Assembly: GCA_015146655.1 (NCBI GenBank)
Contig: VKHL01000032.1
Location: 62,001 to 126,000, forward strand
DNA length: 64,000 nucleotides
Direction of reading: 5' to 3'
Source: Ochromonas danica
Taxonomy: Eukaryota > Sar > Chrysophyceae > Chromulinales > Chromulinaceae
The position numbers and the translations under genes are program-made. Shown here piece by piece: positions 4,580-62,200 of this stretch. A model generated the notes under the pieces. It was not told the origin of the DNA. It searched no databases and was given only the letters and a program-made list of their open reading frames with translations. Numbering within the stretch: position 1 is the stretch's first letter; each line of letters starts with the position of its first letter.

Positions 4580-5946
4580 TCAAACGAAGAGTTTCTCATC
4601 AATCTGAGCCATGAATGAACCACGAATCTCTTCCGGTGTTAACCCTTCTTCGCGCAATTTACGCAAACTTTTGGCAAAGTTTCGTTTAGCTAGTCGCACT
4701 CCATTTTCATCACATACTAGAGGAGAATGGAAGTAACGAGGAATCAGATACTGCGACAAAGCGGTCGGATTGAAGAGAGTGCCGATATCTTCATCCACTA
4801 CGTTGCTATTCACCGAGGGATGTGACCCTTGCTCTTCAAGGGTGCTGAGGGCATTTCGAAGTGCTATAGGTGTGGTAGAAGTATTAGATTCTTCTTTACT
4901 ATCTTCTCCTACCTCAGTGGTTCCCTCCACAATGCCAGGCAATGAAGGCAAATCATGCCAAAGTCTGTCATCCTTGTAATCCAGGCCAAAAATAGCCTTC
5001 ATCAAGAGAAGTTGTCGAGCCGTGCTAAGAAGCAAATCTTCTCCTCGTACTACCTCAGTGATACCCATAAGAACATCATCCACAACCACTGCTAGTTCGT
5101 AGCTAGGATATCCATCCAATCTCCAAACCAAAAAGTCTCCAAAATCTTTCCCTGCTTCGAAGGATTGACTACCTTTACAAGTATCTACAAAGCCTATTTT
5201 GGCTTCTAAAGAATCTGCATCTGGTACTCTAAATCGCCAATTTACACGAACCTCCGAAGGACTGGAAAGATCCTGCCAAGTGGGAGGTAGATGTTCGTTA
5301 GAACCAACTTCATAGGGAATACTATGCATAAAGTCAGGTCGAAGAGAAGGTGGAAAGACAATCTCATTGTTGTTATTATTGGTGTCATTATTGGATATGG
5401 TTGATGGATGGTGTACTTGAGTGTTATTATCATGTGGAGCTGATAATGCAGTTTCAACATCTTTACGAGATAGTTTACAAGGATAGAGATATCCTTTTTC
5501 ATAGAGAATTTTCCATGCATATTCATAGATTGGAAATCTCTGACTTTGTAAGTATTTCGTTGTATTTGTCATAGTTGAGGATGATGACGTGGTTAGAGAA
5601 GAAGAAGATGATGACGATACTCCATAGCCTTGATTCCAGTGAACACCAAACCATGTCAAATCCTCCATCATCTCACTTGTATAAATAGATTTACAACGAG
5701 CGATATCAATATCTTCAACTCGCATGACAAGGTCACCATGTCGTAGACGTGCTCTTTCTTGAGCAATCCAGAATGTCTGTGCATGTCCAACTAACATAAC
5801 ATATGACATACATGTAGTATCAGATTCTTATGCTGGCCTCTCAAACAGTTGGAAGAAGATATAAGCAAAGGCTTACCATGCAAGTGTCCAGATGGAGAAG
5901 GGGCCAATCGACCACGATACTTGGGTAGCTTCTTAGTTTTCATCAT
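4580..5946 (-). CDS. Glutamyl-Q tRNA(Asp) synthetase-like enzyme
   Basis: Two exons, 5946-5877 and 5790-4580, give about 426 residues. The family (YadB/GluQ-RS) is a truncated class I glutamyl-tRNA synthetase that attaches glutamate to queuosine in tRNA-Asp. The catalytic-domain motifs are visible: GRLAPSPSGHLHVGHA (HIGH box, here HVGH), RVEDIDIARC, and a KMSKS-like GVRLAKRNFAKSL near the C terminus. The anticodon-binding domain of full GluRS is absent, as expected for GluQ-RS. Ser and Asn runs are inserted relative to bacterial enzymes. The intron splits the Val codon of the HIGH box. The open frame extends upstream to a GTG at 5991, but the first ATG is at 5946. A divergent organellar GluRS is the alternative, but the short length argues against it. 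Confidence 0.8.
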
Positions 5947-20617: not shown

Positions 20618-20716
20618 GGGGAATTGGTCTAGGGGTATGATTCTCGCTTCGGGTGCGAGAGGTCCCGGGTTCGATTCTAAACCTGCTCTCTGTGTGCGAA
20701 ATTCCCGGATTCCCCC
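20618..20716 (+). tRNA. tRNA-Pro (CGG) with a 27-nt insert in the T-loop
   Basis: The acceptor arms GGGGAAT (20618-20624) and ATTCCCC (20709-20715) pair perfectly, with discriminator C at 20716. The anticodon arm is CTCGC-TTCGGGT-GCGAG with anticodon CGG at 20650-20652. The body matches eukaryotic tRNA-Pro closely. The T-stem strands CCGGG (20665-20669) and CCCGG (20704-20708) are intact, but 34 bases lie between them instead of 7. TTCG (20670-20673) can pair with CGAA (20697-20700), leaving three-base bulges ATT on both strands. Cutting after the second base of each bulge removes 20676-20702 and leaves the standard loop TTCGATT. The B box (GGTTCGATTC) is complete before the insert. A T6 terminator follows. 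Confidence 0.88.
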
Positions 20717-20730
20717 ATCGGGCAGTGAAC

Positions 20731-20736
20731 TTTTTT
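20731..20736 (+). terminator. RNA polymerase III terminator (T6)
   Basis: Six T residues start 15 bases after the end of the tRNA-Pro (CGG) gene. Confidence 0.75.
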
Positions 20737-21401: not shown

Positions 21402-21479
21402 TGACCCAAAGACTCGAAGTAGTTAAGGTCTTATTAGTGCAACTAACAGGACCTTAACCACTTCATGTCTTTGGGTCAG
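21402..21479. repeat. Fold-back hairpin, copy 1
   Basis: Left arm 21402-21438, beginning TGACCCAAAGACTCGAAG, is an imperfect reverse complement of right arm 21442-21479, ending CTTCATGTCTTTGGGTCA. The loop is only a few bases, so the element can form a roughly 37-bp hairpin. A related hairpin lies 245 bp downstream. Confidence 0.8.
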
Positions 21480-24800: not shown

Positions 24801-24942
24801 CTGCAGAGTGTATAATATGTCAACAATAAATAGCATTACACTTTCTTTTGAAATCGATCATATTTCAAGTAACCCACCTACGAGACTCAATCTTTGTAAT
24901 CTACTGGCATTATATTTATCAAGGACACCATTGTTAGCACGC

Positions 24943-25037
24943 GGGGAATTGGTCTAGGGGTATGATTCTCGCTTAGGGTGCGAGAGGTCCCGGGTTCGAA
25001 CCCAGCCTTCGTTGCTAAGAAATTCCCGGATTCCCCC
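24943..25037 (+). tRNA. tRNA-Pro (AGG) with a 23-nt insert in the T-loop
   Basis: The acceptor GGGGAAT (24943-24949) pairs with ATTCCCC (25030-25036), with discriminator C at 25037. The anticodon arm is CTCGC-TTAGGGT-GCGAG with anticodon AGG at 24975-24977. From TTGGTCTAGG to the T-stem the body is close to animal tRNA-Pro. T-stem strands are CCGGG (24990-24994) and CCCGG (25025-25029), with 30 bases between them. TTC (24995-24997) pairs with GAA (25019-25021), with an ATT bulge at 25022-25024. Removing 25001-25023 leaves the standard loop TTCGAAT. The insert differs in sequence and length from that of the CGG gene but sits at the same site. A T4 run follows at 25046-25049. Confidence 0.88.
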
Positions 25038-25045
25038 GCCGAATC

Positions 25046-25049
25046 TTTT
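25046..25049 (+). terminator. RNA polymerase III terminator (T4)
   Basis: Four T residues start nine bases after the end of the tRNA-Pro (AGG) gene. Confidence 0.65.
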
Positions 25050-40966: not shown

Positions 40967-42361
40967 TCACCAATTCCTACCACTGATCTTCATTAAGAAG
41001 ATATCCGTCCCACCACTCTTTCTTCTTTCATCAGACAGAAAACGGCCCGTCGTTGACCCCGTAACATACAAATTATCCTCATCGTCAATCGTCAAACCTC
41101 GACCACGATCTTCTCCCCCACTACCATAAGAAGTGGAATACAGCAATTTACCCATCTCATCATACGTTTGCAACACGATATCACTACGACCAACTGTGTT
41201 GTATTCAACAAAGCTTCTATGCACATAACCCAGAAGATAAAGGCAGTGTTGACTATCCATTACCATCGTCATGGCGTAGCTCACGTCGCGCGGGTCCAGA
41301 TATTTATCCCACACTTCCGTGCCATTCCTGTCATACTTTATCAAGAATGCCTGCTGAGAATCCAGGGTTCCATCCACTGATCCAGAGATGTAGATATCAC
41401 CATAAGAAGGGTCAATTAAGATATCCTTGCCACCGTCAAAACCCACTGTTCCATACAGCTTCGTGAAAAGGGTCTTGCCATCATCACTTCTCACCTTCAA
41501 TAAGAACAAGTCACTATTGCCTTCATTCTGCTCTCCATGAAGATCACCATAGCTATACCCTGTCATGAAGATGTCCTGACTCAAAGGATCCACCGCCACA
41601 CTCTTACCCACATCATCCTCGGCAGTGCCATATTGCTTCGTCCAGATCTTCCTACCCATCCAGTCATATTTCAGGAGGAAGATGTCTTGGTTACCATAAG
41701 CCACCTGCTCATCCAAACTGCCGGTCGTCACACCCGTCACATACACATAACCCAGAGAGTCCATGGCCAGAGACTCGCCTTGGTCAAACCTCGTGGTGCC
41801 ACTCTGCTGGAAGAACAATCTTGACCCATCGTCGCTGTACTTCACAAAAAGAATGTCGGACTCTCCAAGAGGTTTCTGTGAAGAGGAGTCGGCGAAGACA
41901 GACCCTGTCAAGTACGTCGACCCATCTGACTGGTTCACCATCATGTCCAAGATGACCACTTTAGGAGGAGCAGGCCAGTCCATCCCCGTCGCCCCTGTGA
42001 ACATTCTCACACTAGTATTAGAGACCTCGGGAACGTTAGGAGACTGGAGGAGGAGGCGATGAAGGATCTCATCGTCGGATATCGGGAGGGAAGGGTCTGC
42101 TTCTTCTGTTTTGTTTTTGTCGTCTTTCTTCTCGAAGTGAAGAGGACCACTCAGTTCACCCGCCAATGTCACCACCACTGACGACGAAGACTTTCTCACA
42201 GCTATGGCATGAGCGGTATCATCGCCTTTACTACCAAACTGCACTGTGTACAAGACTTTCTGTGCCTTCACGAAGATCACGTTAGGCAGGAGGAGAAGAG
42301 AAAGAAGAAAGAGAGGGAGGATGAGCGAGAACTTCATCATTTTCATCATCATCATCATCAT
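40967..42361 (-). CDS. Secreted SBBP-type beta-propeller protein, copy 1
   Basis: 464 residues in one exon. A signal peptide (MMKFSLILPLFLLSLLLLPN, cleavage near VKAQ) leads into beta-propeller repeats of the SBBP type. Repeats recur about every 50-60 residues with GNQDIFLLKYDWMGRKIWTK, then a GT.EDD.G turn and a VDP...I.MTGYS strand. Six or seven blades are likely. Such proteins are usually extracellular or surface bound, and the ligand is unknown. One linker contains the only variable region (about residues 75-125, LHRLLLQSPN). The annotated frame opens at a GTG. ATG 42361 lies in a run of Met codons, so the exact start is uncertain by a few residues. No introns. Confidence 0.82.
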   Translation of the reverse strand: MMMMMMKMMKFSLILPLFLLSLLLLPNVIFVKAQKVLYTVQFGSKGDDTAHAIAVRKSSSSVVVTLAGELSGPLHFEKKDDKNKTEEADPSLPISDDEILHRLLLQSPNVPEVSNTSVRMFTGATGMDWPAPPKVVILDMMVNQSDGSTYLTGSVFADSSSQKPLGESDILFVKYSDDGSRLFFQQSGTTRFDQGESLAMDSLGYVYVTGVTTGSLDEQVAYGNQDIFLLKYDWMGRKIWTKQYGTAEDDVGKSVAVDPLSQDIFMTGYSYGDLHGEQNEGNSDLFLLKVRSDDGKTLFTKLYGTVGFDGGKDILIDPSYGDIYISGSVDGTLDSQQAFLIKYDRNGTEVWDKYLDPRDVSYAMTMVMDSQHCLYLLGYVHRSFVEYNTVGRSDIVLQTYDEMGKLLYSTSYGSGGEDRGRGLTIDDEDNLYVTGSTTGRFLSDERRKSGGTDIFLMKISGRNW

Positions 42362-42385
42362 TGTCACAGGATTAGGAGGAATTGA

Positions 42386-43244
42386 TTATTATTGAATTTG
42401 ATGAGAGGCTGCGCATTTCCCGAAATTCTCCCTCTTTTCACTCCTTGCCATCAACTGCCAGCGGTTCGGTTTTCGCCTGTTTTGACAAAGTGTGACTTTG
42501 CTGACAGGCAAGGATTACTTCAAAATGCTTTTTCTTTGCTTCGAAAGTTCTGTGTTTTTCGCTTCTATGACTTTTGATGTAACCAATGATTTCAATTGTG
42601 TTTGACGCAGTATCTAGCTTTATGGTCAAACTTTAAGCGATTTTAATGAAGTAGCTATTGAGAATTCTTCGAAAGCGACGCAACATCATTTTCCCCGGGT
42701 GTTTCAAGGTTTTTAGGGAGGAGGCTTTTATTAGTCGAAAACATGATGTAATCTGTCTGTATTCGTTAGTGTGACAACGATAAGCTGCATAAGCAGTTTA
42801 GTAAAGACCCAGTCTTTAAAGACAAAGAGATGGCCAACAAAGGGAGTTAGTTCCCGAGTTCTTCTTCATTCTGCAGCTCCATCTGCAGTGAACCCAGATG
42901 TTGAAATTGAAATTCGTCGCAATGCTTCTTCTAATTGTAGAAAGTTGACTAGTCTAGACAATAGTATACATGTCCTATTATAGGAGGAGGCAATGACTTG
43001 TTGTTTTTCTTCCCTTCATTGAGCTTTTCCATGAGCATTCCGAACTTCGACCATACAGCTTTTTTGTTCACGCAATCTTTGAATGAGTGAGTAACTGTAA
43101 TCACATAATACATAAATACCAATCTATGACATTTCTTAAAATCCCGCACGGAAAGCACTTTTGCGCCGAAATGACTTTTGTCGATAACTTTTGATGAAAT
43201 TAAGTATCGTACAACAATCTAAATTGTGTTTGATAACAAACAAT
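42386..43244. other. Spacer between array units 1 and 2
   Basis: About 860 bp not shared with the spacer between units 2 and 3. I see no gene. It should contain the promoter of copy 1, which therefore differs from the promoters of copies 2 and 3. Confidence 0.5.
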
Positions 43245-43708
43245 TTAAATTACACAATTCACTTCTGCAATGATGCTTCACCACAATAAAGAATTGGTCT
43301 TATCTCTGAATTAAAACACCAACAGAAGCACAGCAGCATCTGTGCAGAAGATCAACGACACATTACCTCATTATCTTGCTCCCTCATCAACACCACAGAC
43401 ACAAACTATAATTCTCAGCTACATAACGATATTAATGAACTGTGTAAGCCCATTTCTCTAACAAACATTAACGTCAAGAATTGCAGACGCATACACAACA
43501 CAGACATGGAACATCATGCATTGCTACACTACTTCAAAACTAAACCGTGAAAAATCATTCACTCATTCTCTAACACACAATAACGTCCAGAATTGTAGAC
43601 GCATACATAATGCACATATTTAGCTCATTCTCAAATTAGCTAACATACATTAACATCAAGAACTGGTGACAATGTATGGTGAGGATGAAAGGTTACCACC
43701 CTTCCTTC

Positions 43709-45100
43709 TCACCAATTCCTACCACTGATCTTCATTAAGAAGATATCCGTCCCACCACTCTTTCTTCTTTCATCAGACAGAAAACGGCCCGTCGTTGACC
43801 CCGTAACATACAAATTATCCTCATCGTCAATCGTCAAACCTCGACCACGATCTTCTCCCCCACTACCATAAGAAGTGGAATACAGCAATTTACCCATCTC
43901 ATCATACGTTTGCAACACGATATCACTACGACCAACTGTGTTGTATTCAACAAAGCTTCTATGCACATAACCCAGAAGATAAAGGCAGTGTTGACTATCC
44001 ATTACCATCGTCATGGCGTAGCTCACGTCGCGCGGGTCCAGATATTTATCCCACACTTCCGTGCCATTCCTGTCATACTTTATCAAGAATGCCTGCTGAG
44101 AATCCAGGGTTCCATCCACTGATCCAGAGATGTAGATATCACCATAAGAAGGGTCAATTAAGATATCCTTGCCACCGTCAAAACCCACTGTTCCATACAG
44201 CTTCGTGAAAAGGGTCTTGCCATCATCACTTCTCACCTTCAATAAGAACAAGTCACTATTGCCTTCATTCTGCTCTCCATGAAGATCACCATAGCTATAC
44301 CCTGTCATGAAGATGTCCTGACTCAAAGGATCCACCGCCACACTCTTACCCACATCATCCTCGGCAGTGCCATATTGCTTCGTCCAGATCTTCCTACCCA
44401 TCCAGTCATATTTCAGGAGGAAGATGTCTTGGTTACCATAAGCCACCTGCTCATCCAAACTGCCGGTCGTCACACCCGTCACATACACATAACCCAGAGA
44501 GTCCATGGCCAGAGACTCGCCTTGGTCAAACCTCGTGGTGCCACTCTGCTGGAAGAACAATCTTGACCCATCGTCGCTGTACTTCACAAAAAGAATGTCG
44601 GACTCTCCAAGAGGTTTCTGTGAAGAGGAGTCGGCGAAGACAGACCCTGTCAAGTACGTCGACCCATCTGACTGGTTCACCATCATGTCCAAGATGACCA
44701 CTTTAGGAGGAGCGGGCCAGTCCATCCCCATCGCCCCTGCGAACATTCTCACACTAGTATTAGAGACCTCGGGAACGTTAGGAGACTGGAGGAGGAGGCG
44801 ATGAAGTATCTCATCGTCGGATATCGGGAGAGCTGCTTTTAGGGAAGGGTCTGCTTCTTCTGTTTTGTTTTTGACGTCTTTCTTCTCGAATTGAAGAGGA
44901 CCACTCAGTTCACCCGCCAATGTCACCACCACTGACGACGAAGACTTTCTCACAGCTATGGCATGAGCGGTATCATCGCCTTTACTACCAAACTGCACTG
45001 TGTACAAGACTTTCTGTGCCTTCACGAAGATCACGTTAGGCAGGAGGAGAAGAGAAAGAAGAAGGAGAGGGAGGATGAGCGAGAACTTCATCATTTTCAT
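43709..45100 (-). CDS. Secreted SBBP-type beta-propeller protein, copy 2
   Basis: 463 residues, the same architecture as copy 1. From about residue 130 to the end the protein is identical to copies 1 and 3. Differences are confined to the N-terminal third: QFEKKDVKNK instead of HFEKKDDKNK, a four-residue insertion that gives DPSLKAALPISDD, and AGAMGMDWP for TGATGMDWP. The insertion is a 12-bp in-frame event. The signal peptide is intact. The upstream 80 bp resemble copy 3 (CCCGATCCTCCCAATC shared) but not copy 1. Confidence 0.82.
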   Translation of the reverse strand: MKMMKFSLILPLLLLSLLLLPNVIFVKAQKVLYTVQFGSKGDDTAHAIAVRKSSSSVVVTLAGELSGPLQFEKKDVKNKTEEADPSLKAALPISDDEILHRLLLQSPNVPEVSNTSVRMFAGAMGMDWPAPPKVVILDMMVNQSDGSTYLTGSVFADSSSQKPLGESDILFVKYSDDGSRLFFQQSGTTRFDQGESLAMDSLGYVYVTGVTTGSLDEQVAYGNQDIFLLKYDWMGRKIWTKQYGTAEDDVGKSVAVDPLSQDIFMTGYSYGDLHGEQNEGNSDLFLLKVRSDDGKTLFTKLYGTVGFDGGKDILIDPSYGDIYISGSVDGTLDSQQAFLIKYDRNGTEVWDKYLDPRDVSYAMTMVMDSQHCLYLLGYVHRSFVEYNTVGRSDIVLQTYDEMGKLLYSTSYGSGGEDRGRGLTIDDEDNLYVTGSTTGRFLSDERRKSGGTDIFLMKISGRNW

Positions 45101-45539
45101 CACTGTTACAGGATTAGGAGGAATTGATTAATGACTGAGAGGCTCTAAGCCCGATCCTCCCAATCAGTCTTCTTTGTTGAACTCTGGCTGTCAACTTCTT
45201 TTTTCTCTCCATCAAAGGCACACAATTTCCCGCTGTTGCCTGCCTTTAACTTGACAAAGTTGAACAGTTTCCAGTTGATGTTTGCACCTCAGAGACACAC
45301 ACCTCAAAGACATGTGATTGTTTTGTTTGCGCATGCATTTGTGGTATATATGTTCGACTATATTCTAGGGAGACTGTAAGGGGTTCCTAGCTTCTCCGTA
45401 TGTGTCCATATATGTACAGATTATGTGGTGTTGAACAACAGTTCCTGCCCCTCATAATCACGATTTTTAGATTTACTTCTCCGGTTCTGAAGTTATTATA
45501 GAATCAATCACATCGAGAATTGAACTTCCCGCACTCATC

Positions 45540-45755
45540 TTAACAGATTAAATGAGGATTATATCAAGCCCAAGCGACCACCGACAACTAAGCCCTCTGT
45601 TAGTCGAAGCTAATCTTCCTTCCGGCGCATTGGCAGAAGAAAAAATCAAATATTTGAAGTAGACTGCTCGTAAATAGAATGATGCCCACTCTATCCCAGA
45701 TGAAGATGTCTGATGATGACAGTCTGGTCATGGTAACTCCATGTGATGCTGAGAG
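45540..45755 (+). pseudogene. Truncated copy of the TIPIN 5' region
   Basis: ATG at 45682 opens MPTLSQMKMSDDDSLVM, matching the first codons of the TIPIN gene at 48249 (MPTLSEMEMSDDDSLVI). The preceding 140 bp match the TIPIN upstream region in patches, for example AAAAATCAAATATTTGAA. Homology stops after about 20 codons, so this is a non-functional leftover of the duplication that made the array. Confidence 0.82.
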
Positions 45756-46249
45756 AGCAGGACACGCCAAGTCGATACAAAAACTTAAATTACACAATTC
45801 ACTTCTACAATGATGCTTCAACACAATAAAGAATTGGTCTTATCTCAAAACAAAAAATACCAACAGAAGCACAGTAGCATCTGTACAGAAGAGCAAAGAC
45901 ACATCACCTAATTATCTTGATCCCTCATCAACACCACAGACACGAACAATCATTCTTTGCAATACAACATCATTAATAAATTGTGTAAGCTCATTTCTCT
46001 AACACACAATAACATCAAGAATTGCAGACGCATACACAACACAGACATTGAACATCATGCATTGCTACACTTCTTTAAAACTAAACCGTGAAAAATCATT
46101 CACTCATTCTCTAACACACAATAACGTCCAGAATTGTAGACGCATACAAAATACAGATATTTAGCTCATTCTCAAATTAGCTAACATACATTAACATCAA
46201 GAACTGGTGACAATGTATGGTGAGGATGAAAGGTTACCACCCTTCCTTC

Positions 46250-47635
46250 TCACCAATTCCTACCACTGATCTTCATTAAGAAGATATCCGTCCCACCACT
46301 CTTTCTTCTTTCATCAGACAGAAAACGGCCCGTCGTTGACCCCGTAACATACAAATTATCCTCATCGTCAATCGTCAAACCTCGACCACGATCTTCTCCC
46401 CCACTACCATAAGAAGTGGAATACAGCAATTTACCCATCTCATCATACGTTTGCAACACGATATCACTACGACCAACTGTGTTGTATTCAACAAAGCTTC
46501 TATGCACATAACCCAGAAGATAAAGGCAGTGTTGACTATCCATTACCATCGTCATGGCGTAGCTCACGTCGCGCGGGTCCAGATATTTATCCCACACTTC
46601 CGTGCCATTCCTGTCATACTTTATCAAGAATGCCTGCTGAGAATCCAGGGTTCCATCCACTGATCCAGAGATGTAGATATCACCATAAGAAGGGTCAATT
46701 AAGATATCCTTGCCACCGTCAAAACCCACTGTTCCATACAGCTTCGTGAAAAGGGTCTTGCCATCATCACTTCTCACCTTCAATAAGAACAAGTCACTAT
46801 TGCCTTCATTCTGCTCTCCATGAAGATCACCATAGCTATACCCTGTCATGAAGATGTCCTGACTCAAAGGATCCACCGCCACACTCTTACCCACATCATC
46901 CTCGGCAGTGCCATATTGCTTCGTCCAGATCTTCCTACCCATCCAGTCATATTTCAGGAGGAAGATGTCTTGGTTACCATAAGCCACCTGCTCATCCAAA
47001 CTGCCGGTCGTCACACCCGTCACATACACATAACCCAGAGAGTCCATGGCCAGAGACTCGCCTTGGTCAAACCTCGTGGTGCCACTCTGCTGGAAGAACA
47101 ATCTTGACCCATCGTCGCTGTACTTCACAAAAAGAATGTCGGACTCTCCAAGAGGTTTCTGTGAAGAGGAGTCGGCGAAGACAGACCCTGTCAAGTACGT
47201 CGACCCATCTGACTGGTTCACCATCATGTCCAAGATGACCACTTTAGGAGGAGCGAGCCAGTCTATCCCCGTCGCCCCTGTGAACATTCTCACACTAGTA
47301 TTAGAGACCTCGGGAACGTTAGGAGACTGGAGGAGGAGGCGATGAAGGATCTCATCGTCGGATATCGGGAGGGAAGGGTCTGCTTCTTCTGTTTTGTTTT
47401 TGTCGTCTTTCTTCTCGAAGTGAAGAGGACCACTCAGTTCACCCGCCAATGTCACCACCACTGACGACGAAGACTTTCTCACAGCTATGGCATGAGCGGT
47501 ATCATCGCCTTTACTACCAAACTGCACTGTGTACAAGACTTTCTGTGCCTTCACGAAGATCACGTTAGGCAGGAGGAGAAGAGAAAGAAGAAGGAGAGGG
47601 AGGATGAGCGAGAACTTCATCATTTTCATCATCAT
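46250..47635 (-). CDS. Secreted SBBP-type beta-propeller protein, copy 3
   Basis: 461 residues, identical in layout to copies 1 and 2. It differs from copy 1 only in the length of the starting Met run, one signal-peptide residue (PLLLLSLL for PLFLLSLL) and GIDWLAPP for GMDWPAPP. This copy sits next to the intact TIPIN gene and shares a divergent intergenic region with it, so it probably represents the original position. ATG 47635 is the first of several adjacent Met codons. Confidence 0.82.
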   Translation of the reverse strand: MMMKMMKFSLILPLLLLSLLLLPNVIFVKAQKVLYTVQFGSKGDDTAHAIAVRKSSSSVVVTLAGELSGPLHFEKKDDKNKTEEADPSLPISDDEILHRLLLQSPNVPEVSNTSVRMFTGATGIDWLAPPKVVILDMMVNQSDGSTYLTGSVFADSSSQKPLGESDILFVKYSDDGSRLFFQQSGTTRFDQGESLAMDSLGYVYVTGVTTGSLDEQVAYGNQDIFLLKYDWMGRKIWTKQYGTAEDDVGKSVAVDPLSQDIFMTGYSYGDLHGEQNEGNSDLFLLKVRSDDGKTLFTKLYGTVGFDGGKDILIDPSYGDIYISGSVDGTLDSQQAFLIKYDRNGTEVWDKYLDPRDVSYAMTMVMDSQHCLYLLGYVHRSFVEYNTVGRSDIVLQTYDEMGKLLYSTSYGSGGEDRGRGLTIDDEDNLYVTGSTTGRFLSDERRKSGGTDIFLMKISGRNW

Positions 47636-48248
47636 TGTCACAGGACTAGGAGGAAATGATTAATGACGGAGAGACTCCAAGCCCGATCCTCCCAATCCAT
47701 CTTGTTGAACTCTGGCTGTCAACTTCTTTTTTCTCTCCGTCAACCCGCGCTTTGCTGACTCTGGCTGCTGTTGCACCTCACAGGCGCACACCTCAAAGAG
47801 ATGTGTTCGTTTTTTTTGCAGGTATATTTGCAGTTAAGTGTATATTTCCAAGTGTACATGTAGGGGCTCCTAGCTACTCTGTATGCGTCTTTATGTACAG
47901 AAGACAGACCTATACCAGTGAGCTGGAGTAGCAACAGAGAGTGCTGGAAAAAGTTCCCATCCCTCAAAATCAGAATTCAGAATTATCTTCACTTCAGAAT
48001 TATCATAGGCTCAGGATCACATCAAGAATTGAATTTCCCGCACTCAGCGTAAAAAGTTAAATGGAGATTGTATCATGTCCAAGCGACACCGTTATACTTT
48101 GCTGGAGCCGCAAGCCTTTGCCTTCTTTGCTTCTCCATCCGACCAGTCATCCTTCCAGCGCAAGACAACTATAGTTGGTTCAAACAAAAATCAAATATTT
48201 GAACTAGTCTAGACTAACGTTAGACTACAAGTACTTGTGAAGAGAAAG
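47636..48248. promoter_or_regulatory. Divergent intergenic region, beta-propeller copy 3 / TIPIN
   Basis: 613 bp between two divergent starts. Parts of it recur at 45101-45681, upstream of copy 2, showing that it was included in the duplicated unit. No RNA gene is seen. Confidence 0.55.
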
Positions 48249-59283: not shown

Positions 59284-62200
59284 CTACTTCTTCTTGGCGA
59301 GCTCAAGCAATGTTTTCAATCCCTTGATCCAATCCTTATGATCATTCCACGAAGTAGTCACCAAATCCTAATAGATAATAATGAAAACAAGGCATATATG
59401 TTATCTCAATCGTTCACACTCAGCTAAAGGATGCATTTCACTCACCGCCTGTATAGAGGTAGCAGCAGGATAATTCTTGTTCACCACATTGTCCATGAAA
59501 AGCGCAAGCTTCTGAAGAATGGATTCATCCAGTTGATTGGCTTTCAGCTTGTCACATAACGCAGTGTACGAAGTTCTAATCGCAGCAACCTGCTTCTTCT
59601 CGGTAGGATTGAGCGAACTTGCTGTACAAAAACAGAAAGAAATCAGAGAAAGAACACATTGACAGAGCACTACGACTCACCTGCGATGGCCTCAATCATC
59701 TGACCGAGAGCAATAATCGAATCCACCTCAACGGGAGCAGTAGAAACAGCAGACGGTTCAGAAGTACTGGCCGAGGAAGAACTCACCACCGGACGACTCG
59801 TTTCGGCTAATGGCAGCTGGGAAATTGTTGGGACGACTTCAGGGGCTGCCGGGGCTGCCTTGGCTGCAGGGGAAACAGAATCGTAGGAACTAACAGGATT
59901 AGGCACGAATCCAGGATACTGAGGAACAGCAGAAGGAGTTGGAGCGGGCGCAGGGACAGATGGTAAGCTAGGTGGATCCCACTGAGACTGTCCAGTTGCC
60001 TGATTAACATAGTAGGGCCTATTCGAGCTAGGGTCAAAGAGCTGGAGCCAACCTGCTGGAAGAGCAGGTGCTGCGGGGGTTGGAGCAGCAGGAGCAGCAG
60101 CAGCAGCGGCAGTCAAAGGATTGACTGGTGCTACCGAGGCATTGGCGGGAGTAATACTGAGAGCAGCTGTAGCTTGTTGGATAGCACTTGACGCATCCGC
60201 AACACCGGGCTTTTGGCGCACAGCATTTGCAGTCGGTTTGGTAGTTGCTACATTAGGGAGCGCTTGGGCAGCAGCAGTAGATGCAGCAGCCGCAGCGGTC
60301 TTCGATTGTTCAACAACAACTTTAGTGAAAGGAAAAGGAGGGGGCCTGGATCCAGCAGGTTTGTTACCAGCATGATAAATACGATCCATAAGAACGCTCT
60401 CCGCGATACTGCTGCCTTTCAAATAAGACGAGGCAGCACTCAAACGACCTTGATTCACTAATATTTCACCATATTTAGCAAAGAATGTTCCACACTCAAC
60501 TCCTAAATTGTCAGTTGGATTGGCATGGGTAAATACCATAATTTTCTCAACGTAATCCTGCAGAGCATTCACATCAAGCTGTCCGAGACGATTGCTGGCA
60601 GCTTGTAATTCTTCTGTCCAAAACGCGATGGTGCGAGACACATTAGCAGCACACATGAAGCATAACGCGGCTGAGTGCTTATCTCCCAGTTCGTTCTCCA
60701 ACCGAGTTGCAAGAGCCTCGCACAGTTGAGAAAACTCTTCACTTTTGCCATAAGTGCTCAATAAAGCAAGAGTCTCCCGCCAATTTTGCAAATCTGATGA
60801 TAGAACAAAGCTCATCAACTGATTCTTGATAACGGCATGAAGGACATTGAGGAAGGGATGTTTATTGCGCTGTCGCTCAAAGAATGCTGCTTGTGTTCTG
60901 GCTCTTAATTCATGATCTCCACATTGAGCCAAAAGTAAAGCCTCTGCCAACATACCTGCAGCTAAGCAGCAATCAACAGCCAGGCCAAAATTTCCCACAA
61001 CAACTGCTCTGCGGATGGTAGGCTCGGCTTCCTCCCAGCTCATCACTAAATCTACCATCTCATCAACTTTTCCTTTGAGGTTAGGATCACTGGCGATGTC
61101 GATCGACGACCTAATCTTCGTGGGAAAAGAAGGAGATGTGTTGCCAAACAATTCCTCGGCTGATTCAGTTGTCTTGATTTCAGTAACTTCACCATTGCGA
61201 GATATGAGGTATTTACTGGCTGCCTCAACAATAGTCTTACTGTCAAACCCCAAATAAGTGAGGAGCTCTTCTCGTGCATTGGCTCCAAAGCAAATTACAT
61301 TCATCAGACTCCAAACTTTGCGGGCCTCTGGATCACTTGACTGTTGGCTTTTGTATTCGCAAAATTCTTTATACTGGCCTTTAGAGATGAAGTCGTGAAA
61401 GTTATCACTTGCAGCTACTACCTCAGGGTTTTCTTCGACTTGGAAGATCTGCAACTTTGAACCTGTTGTTGTCTTCTTGGTGGCACTGGCCGTGGCTGCT
61501 GGAGCGGGGTTGTTAACAATATTCACCAATTTCCCACCAAAACCGAAAGTCGCTCCAACAGGTCTTCTTAGCCATTTGGGAGCCCTGCCAGAGCGAGATG
61601 GGGCACCAGACATGGAAAAGAATTGAACCTTTCGATCAAATGAAGCAGCTGAAACGACAGCAGGCAGACAAGGTGACCAGGAAACATGGTATCTGCGGTG
61701 GCTGGCGGAAGACGCCAAGGATCCAAACACATTCTGTTCTGACTGATAAGTGCTGTGTTCTACATCGCGCACAGGCAACTCATAAGCAGGTTGCAAATGA
61801 AACAGATCCCAGAGGATGGTACGATTATCCTTTCCACAAGAAAGTAAGAGAGAGGAGTCATTGGGACACCAGGAGACAGAGAGAACACCCTCGGTATGAC
61901 CCTGCAAGGTAGCTAATGGCAAGGAAGTACTTGAACGAAGATCCCATAACTTGATGACAGGATTACGGTCATCCCCACTAGCAGTGACAATATGCAAACC
62001 TTGATCAGGATTCCAGGCGATATCAGAGACAATACCACCAGAAGGGTCGCGAAGCTCACACCTAATCACCATGAAAATCACATTAGACAAGGAAGATTAC
62101 ATCAAGCCCACTCGCTTACCAAGCTCTCTTTTGACGTAAATCCCACACAAAGCAAGAACCATTTTGAGCAGAGGATGCCAAGATATGCACCACTTGAGAA

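Follow-up and report, generated by a model that had tools for sequence, protein, structure and literature searches.

Probable T-loop introns in all nuclear tRNA-Pro genes found in the chrysophyte alga Ochromonas danica

The window analyzed here is a stretch of 64,000 nucleotides of Ochromonas danica DNA and belongs to a contig of 228 kb, whose genes are of the ordinary eukaryotic kind. A base-by-base check revealed a complete eukaryotic tRNA-Pro(CGG) gene at positions 20618-20716 with a T-loop of 34 bases. The acceptor stem is formed by GGGGAAT (20618-20624) and ATTCCCC (20709-20715). The T-stem, CCGGG (20665-20669) and CCCGG (20704-20708), encloses the 34 bases. Intact stems around a T-loop of this size had been described in the original prediction, together with TTCG (20670-20673) pairing with CGAA (20697-20700) and an ATT following each strand (20674-20676 and 20701-20703); all of these coordinates and pairings are correct. 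The anticodon loop has 7 bases and is therefore not interrupted at the canonical site 37/38. The insert thus lies elsewhere in an otherwise intact tRNA, as is typical of an ectopic tRNA intron. A second gene of this kind, tRNA-Pro(AGG), is located further downstream in the window.

20618..20675, plus strand: 5' exon of tRNA-Pro(CGG), covering positions 1-59 for a cut at 59/60, with the anticodon CGG at 20650-20652 (match to model R1)
20676..20702, plus strand: predicted T-loop intron of tRNA-Pro(CGG), 27 nt (cut at 59/60, behind the second bulge base)
20703..20716, plus strand: 3' exon of tRNA-Pro(CGG), position 60 to discriminator C73 (match to model R1)
24943..25000, plus strand: 5' exon of tRNA-Pro(AGG), anticodon AGG at 24975-24977 (match to model R1)
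25001..25023, plus strand: predicted T-loop intron of tRNA-Pro(AGG), 23 nt (59/60 rule; 56/57 to 58/59 also possible)
25024..25037, plus strand: 3' exon of tRNA-Pro(AGG) (match to model R1)

ARAGORN lists no gene at 20618-20716, and Rfam at its gathering score finds nothing anywhere in the 64,000-nt window. For recognition of the interrupted genes, 11 nuclear tRNAs of this genome, none of them for Pro, were given random 24-nt inserts in the T-loop and used to train a covariance model (R1); leaving Pro tRNAs out of the training set avoids circularity. R1 matches the CGG gene end to end with 45.3 bits (E 3.4e-11, a rough value) and the AGG gene at 24943-25037 with 46.6 bits. All nine Pro genes supplied were matched end to end (the copy on contig C200 was left out of the input). 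Ordinary tRNAs are also matched by R1, via deletion of the insert, so that a match indicates an intact tRNA frame around the insert and not a preference for it. At the AGG locus, ARAGORN draws a different, shorter gene (24941-25013), and Rfam draws a similar one at 22.2 bits, under the cut-off of 29. This alternative was rejected because in the R1 match at 24943-25037 both the acceptor stem and the T-stem are completely paired.

Several other features were observed in the window. SEC31 is encoded at 59670-62090 on the minus strand; this one protein shows 100% identity, over 99% of the query, to a EukProt entry labelled Ochromonas danica, which the taxonomy assigns to the Chrysophyceae (Stramenopiles). 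Three open frames in tandem (40967-47641, minus strand), 463-466 aa long and nearly identical to each other, represent a recent gene triplication. A 409-aa frame at 4580-5806 on the minus strand carries the catalytic domain of a Glu/Gln-type class I tRNA synthetase (PF00749) and may be a glutamyl-Q-type or organellar enzyme. A hairpin-forming inverted repeat at 21417-21463 shows a weak match to a microRNA family on both strands (25.3 bits, cut-off 74), which is probably due to chance.

The assembly comprises 31.2 Mb in 337 contigs. Searching it at the DNA level revealed 10 nuclear tRNA-Pro genes, of which one has the anticodon CGG, five AGG and four TGG. The same 10 places were found, with 0 mismatches in each, by a pattern of 34 fixed bases covering the D-arm and the anticodon arm and allowing up to 3 mismatches. 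A T-loop insert is present in all 10 genes, with a length of 27 nt in the CGG gene and 23 nt in the AGG and TGG genes, and no uninterrupted nuclear tRNA-Pro gene was found in the 31.2-Mb assembly with this pattern. Only one uninterrupted tRNA-Pro was seen in the assembly; it lies on contig C214, has the anticodon TGG, is of organelle type and is outside the reach of the pattern. These findings support the earlier claim of an ectopic intron in a nuclear genome. A D- or T-arm insert in one of many synonymous eukaryotic genes has been supposed to mark a pseudogene, according to a review (PMC4090602). Such a dead copy beside intact tRNA-Pro genes had been named with the original prediction as the outcome that would speak against it. 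The CGG gene is no lone odd copy beside intact synonymous genes, and the tRNA-Pro genes show neither decayed stems or boxes nor, within the reach of these searches, intact nuclear paralogues. A single-copy pseudogene was therefore rejected, as the insert in all 10 genes excludes an isolated dead copy within the content of the assembly.

The anticodon aside, the CGG, AGG and TGG genes do not differ from each other in bases 1-58 or in the 3' part. The 23-nt insert is likewise identical in all nine AGG and TGG genes. The insert of the CGG gene differs from it in length and sequence, with a common 3' ending GAAATT before the T-stem. This divergence next to an identical tRNA body was counted in favor of an intron. 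Flanking sequences were compared without the bases immediately adjoining each gene, and more than 50% ungapped identity in an outer flank was detected in only 3 of 45 gene pairs (1 upstream, 2 downstream). The family is therefore not the result of one recent duplication. A recent tandem array was rejected as well, since the flanks are mostly unrelated.

The other tRNAs of the genome were surveyed by 5'-half patterns, which are blind to the T-loop, and by an Rfam tRNA search that scored only 63 of 1363 candidates, so that the survey is incomplete. Besides Pro, 15 nuclear isotypes were sampled (Arg, Asn, Asp, Cys, Gln, Glu, Ile, Leu, Lys, Met, Phe, Ser, Thr, Tyr and Val). All resolved non-Pro nuclear tRNAs have a 7-base T-loop, in a survey without Ala, Gly, His, Trp and initiator Met and with ties in the parsing assigned to the shorter loop. 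The 40 short stretches chosen for parsing, picked from longer lists (20 of 30, 12 of 52 and 8 of 77), were all resolved, one of them (C336) being of organelle type. The pattern for Asp, Gln, Glu and Val gave 52 matches against 45 for its control, and 12 places were picked by eye from the recurring matches. A loose tRNA-Gly/Glu pattern was unusable (204 matches against 167 for the control). With ARAGORN, about 87 distinct non-Pro contexts were counted on contigs sorted as nuclear (94 in all, 7 of them Pro); as 7 Pro contexts stand against nine AGG and TGG genes, near-identical flanks are merged in this count.

Genes of this genome for Tyr, Asn (27 nt), Asp (26 nt) and, on contig C189, Gln (31 nt) contain introns at 37/38. 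They were counted in favor of the intron reading for tRNA-Pro. The Gln gene on C189 is read by ARAGORN as having a stop anticodon. Our reading is Gln(TTG), given the similarity of its exons to the intronless Gln(TTG) gene on contig C11. tRNA-Gln(TTG) thus seems to be present both with the 37/38 intron (C189: L130, L131) and without it (C11: L015). The nuclear tRNA-Asn(GTT) with its intron of about 27 nt (L062:1494-1593; contigs C2, C42, C43 and C226) has the T-loop ATCGAGA. An A at position 54 is unusual in elongator tRNAs. Several different sets of plastid- or organelle-like tRNAs are located on the small contigs C193, C202, C303 (L055, L057, L045) and C214 (L044), with three different Asp(GTC) and three different Ser(GCT) genes on C193, C202 and C303. 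These differing sets suggest that the assembly contains organelle DNA from more than one source.

The fold of the insert was analyzed with the tRNA stems enforced, which gave the following elements in the CGG precursor.

20670..20673, plus strand: 5' strand of the central helix, TTCG, paired with CGAA at 20697-20700 (enforced-stem fold)
20697..20700, plus strand: 3' strand of the central helix, CGAA, at the 3' end of the predicted intron (enforced-stem fold)
20701..20703, plus strand: 3-nt 3' bulge ATT between helix and T-stem, predicted 3' splice site (enforced-stem fold)

Both precursor types pair from T54 with the 3' end of the intron and leave ATT as a 3-nt bulge beside the T-stem. The helix is TTCG/CGAA (4 bp) in the CGG gene and TTC/GAA (3 bp) in the AGG and TGG genes. 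When bulges of 0-6 nt were compared, the longest helix from T54 was obtained in the register with the 3-nt bulge for both insert types. An equal run was reached by 0.5% of the dinucleotide shuffles of the CGG insert (4 bp) and by 2.4% of those of the AGG/TGG insert (3 bp), two figures that are not independent, since the inserts may share ancestry. The insert had been described before as a bulge-helix-bulge. Of this description, the central helix and the 3-nt 3' bulge hold, but the strict hBHBh' motif (a 4-bp central helix, two 3-nt bulges and both outer helices) is not formed. In the CGG precursor the inner helix beyond the 5' ATT is absent, and in the AGG/TGG precursor the 3-bp helix and the 3' bulge are followed by an internal loop and then a hairpin. 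A relaxed motif with a 3-nt 3' bulge, a short helix and the 5' site in a loop was found in both insert types under the enforced stems. In these folds, the term bulge-helix-loop fits the insert better.

This fold is not the unconstrained minimum. It lies 2.2 kcal/mol above it in the AGG precursor (-31.0 vs. -33.2 kcal/mol) and 3.4 kcal/mol above it in the CGG precursor (-29.2 vs. -32.6 kcal/mol). With the T-stem enforced, the stability of the T-arm is not unusual and was reached by 21% (AGG) and 55% (CGG) of the insert shuffles. The minimum-energy fold of the joined 72-nt tRNA-Pro forms is likewise not a cloverleaf, so that the energy test is weak both ways and decides little. The AGG/TGG precursor can also pair an alternative T-arm, GGGT TCGA ACCC, drawing on intron bases.

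The archaeal tRNA endonuclease cuts after the second base of the bulge. The 59/60 site of the original prediction follows from this rule; however, cuts at 56/57, 57/58 and 58/59 also leave a 7-base T-loop. In the CGG gene, the T-loop after removal reads TTCGATT for 57/58, 58/59 or 59/60 and TTCAATT for 56/57. In the AGG and TGG genes it reads TTCAATT (56/57), TTCGATT (57/58 and 58/59) or TTCGAAT (59/60). Cuts at 56/57 to 58/59 give identical bodies for both gene types, whereas under the 59/60 rule base 59 differs, being T in the CGG gene and A in the others. Judged from the sequences, the identical bodies would count in favor of a cut earlier than 59/60. Removal of the insert in silico leaves a normal tRNA, and all five joined 72-nt variants were called tRNA-Pro (agg, tgg or cgg) with the right anticodon by ARAGORN.

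Putative signals for transcription by RNA polymerase III were identified at both genes of the window. The consensus of the B-box is GGTTCGANNCC.

20668..20678, plus strand: B-box GGTTCGATTCT of the CGG gene, spanning the exon-intron junction and matching GGTTCGANNCC at 8 of its 9 fixed bases (from the sequence)
20731..20736, plus strand: TTTTTT, probable terminator for Pol III downstream of the CGG gene (from the sequence)
24993..25003, plus strand: B-box GGTTCGAACCC in the AGG gene, matching all 9 fixed bases, with the last CC contributed by the intron (from the sequence)
25046..25049, plus strand: TTTT, probable terminator for Pol III downstream of the AGG gene (from the sequence)

In the AGG and TGG genes the B-box is complete because the intron supplies its last CC. 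This suggests, without proving it, that the 5' end of the intron may be under promoter constraint. T runs occur within about 20 bases downstream of all 10 tRNA-Pro genes.

Candidates for the splicing machinery were also found in the assembly. Two tRNA_int_endo domains (PF01974) lie above the cut-off, which we take to be Sen34-like and Sen2-like by their motifs and not by a tree. The Sen34-like candidate is a 283-aa open frame with a weak match to archaeal endonucleases (best E 0.0013); its match to a Sen34 chain among solved structures was not significant (E 0.65). In the Sen2-like candidate the PF01974 domain is split over two frames and barely exceeds the cut-off (27.4 vs. 27). A weak N-terminal domain lies upstream of it (19.7 bits, below the cut-off of 21). 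When the Sen2 exon was compared with solved structures, the top matches covered a histidine run and were dismissed as chance. The Sen54 N-terminal domain is present above its cut-off. RtcB was detected with 389.5 bits in the longest piece and in two further pieces. The matched stretch contains three TGA and one TAG, and we take these in-frame stops and the pieces for spliceosomal introns. For Sen15 (PF09631), a search run without a eukaryotic control gave no match in the assembly, so that this negative result is weak support for a relaxed enzyme.

Taken from the gene structures, the tRNA-Pro genes probably work, and the T-loop intron of 23-27 nt near 59/60 would be cut out of the precursor by the Sen endonuclease from a relaxed bulge-helix-loop. 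RNA polymerase III would transcribe the genes from a B-box that spans the exon-intron junction. The Sen endonuclease, with Sen2 and Sen34 as catalytic subunits together with Sen54, would cut at the 3-nt ATT bulge beside the T-stem. The second cut would fall in the loop past the short helix between T54-T55-C56(-G57) and the intron 3' end GAA or CGAA. The exons would then be joined, probably by an RtcB-type ligase, to a normal 72-nt tRNA-Pro with a 7-base T-loop. Splicing is strongly implied because no intact nuclear gene was found, and removal of the intron would be obligatory for proline decoding, as every nuclear tRNA-Pro gene found carries it.

Removal of the insert by a route other than the Sen endonuclease and a bulge-helix-loop is unlikely. 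The helix with its 3-nt 3' bulge is common to both insert types, Sen candidates are present in the assembly, and 23-27 nt are too short for any known self-splicing intron; for such a route speak the fold above the energy minimum and the lack of a full bulge-helix-bulge. It would also find a parallel in nucleomorphs, where the splicing mechanism of the introns, above all of the extremely short ones, is given as unknown in a review (PMC4090602). Still less probable is a retained insert, giving a mature tRNA-Pro with a T-loop of 30-34 bases. An insert identical in nine genes is what a working part of the mature molecule might show, but the other resolved nuclear tRNAs keep 7-base T-loops and the CGG insert changed in length and sequence while the body did not. 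So large a loop would also break the contact between T-loop and D-loop. The least probable reading, that all copies are dead and the working genes are missing from an assembly of 337 contigs, which may be incomplete, or too divergent for a pattern tolerating 3 mismatches and for the few candidates scored by Rfam, hardly agrees with a D-arm to anticodon arm free of mismatches in 10 genes of three anticodon types, where dead copies would decay, nor with the T runs kept after the genes and the lack of any intact nuclear copy.

The predicted T-loop introns can be compared with known systems. In Cyanidioschyzon merolae, tRNA-Ile(UAU) contains introns at 12/13, 37/38 and, in the T-arm, 53/54 (PMC9602550). 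Sen2, Sen34 and Sen54 were identified there, and no apparent Sen15 is reported (PMC9602550; PMC3978253). O. danica resembles C. merolae in its eukaryotic nuclear genome, the T-arm intron, Sen2, Sen34 and Sen54 (as candidates in O. danica) and a Sen15 that was not found. C. merolae has hBHBh' motifs in tRNA-Ile(UAU), numerous tRNA genes with interruptions, genes with more than one intron, and permuted genes. In contrast, O. danica is a stramenopile with one affected isotype as far as sampled, 10 of 10 genes interrupted, a site near 59/60 and a relaxed motif.

Non-canonical intron sites of archaea include 59/60, and the relaxed motifs hBH and HBh' occur (PMC4090602). The O. danica introns share site and relaxed motif with these archaeal introns, known mainly from Crenarchaeota and Nanoarchaeota, but their genes are nuclear and eukaryotic and the Sen candidates are of eukaryotic type. 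Nucleomorph introns of Guillardia theta have 3-24 nt and sites including the D and T arms, and some nucleomorph tRNA introns were shown by RT-PCR to be excised, many being without a defined BHB (PMC4090602; PMC3978253). Short introns, T-arm sites and an often undefined motif are shared with nucleomorphs (G. theta and chlorarachniophytes). Unlike the introns of these reduced endosymbiont genomes, those of O. danica are located in the main nucleus in a multi-copy family. Canonical 37/38 introns co-occur in O. danica, but the site in tRNA-Pro is the T-loop and not the anticodon loop.

According to a 2014 review, non-canonical tRNA introns are rare in eukaryotes and known from nucleomorphs and C. 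merolae, with permuted genes in prasinophytes (PMC4090602). No report of T-loop introns in the nucleus of a chrysophyte or another stramenopile was found in the open literature, subscription papers being mostly outside the scope of this search. Relatives were also sought in other sequence collections. Two eukaryotic tRNA-Pro patterns gave 0 stretches in viral contigs. In genome contigs the first pattern gave 0 stretches and the second 3, two from a single contig that is recorded as a Maritimibacter MAG and a third recorded as Haloplasmataceae. In all three, the tRNA-Pro at the match has a normal T-loop of 7 bases, and the stretches look like eukaryotic DNA. On the contig recorded as Maritimibacter (NZVC01000054.1; L148, L150), dozens of tRNA genes of eukaryotic type follow each other at intervals of one to two hundred bases, and L150 has only 4 open frames of at least 120 aa; this contig does not look bacterial.

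In O. danica, all found genes of an essential tRNA family are interrupted, in an alga distant from the red algae. ARAGORN and Rfam miss or misdraw these genes, which points to a gap in annotation. The non-canonical intron search of tRNAscan-SE 2.0 is described for candidates of the archaeal model (PMC8450103). Ectopic introns may therefore be overlooked in protists, because the standard tRNA finder seeks them in archaeal mode. The yeast-type Sen enzyme is described as measuring the distance to its site (PMC3978253), and cutting in the T-loop would thus need a relaxed enzyme. Two questions become testable: whether eukaryotic Sen endonucleases can recognize a bulge-helix element locally instead of relying solely on a ruler to 37/38, and whether T-loop introns go together with a missing Sen15. 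We lean slightly towards the view that a stramenopile nucleus has fixed a T-loop intron in its whole proline isoacceptor family. The decoding of every proline codon would then require a Sen activity that is relaxed and archaeal-like, may lack Sen15 and acts beside ordinary splicing at 37/38. Such introns may be widespread in protists but overlooked.
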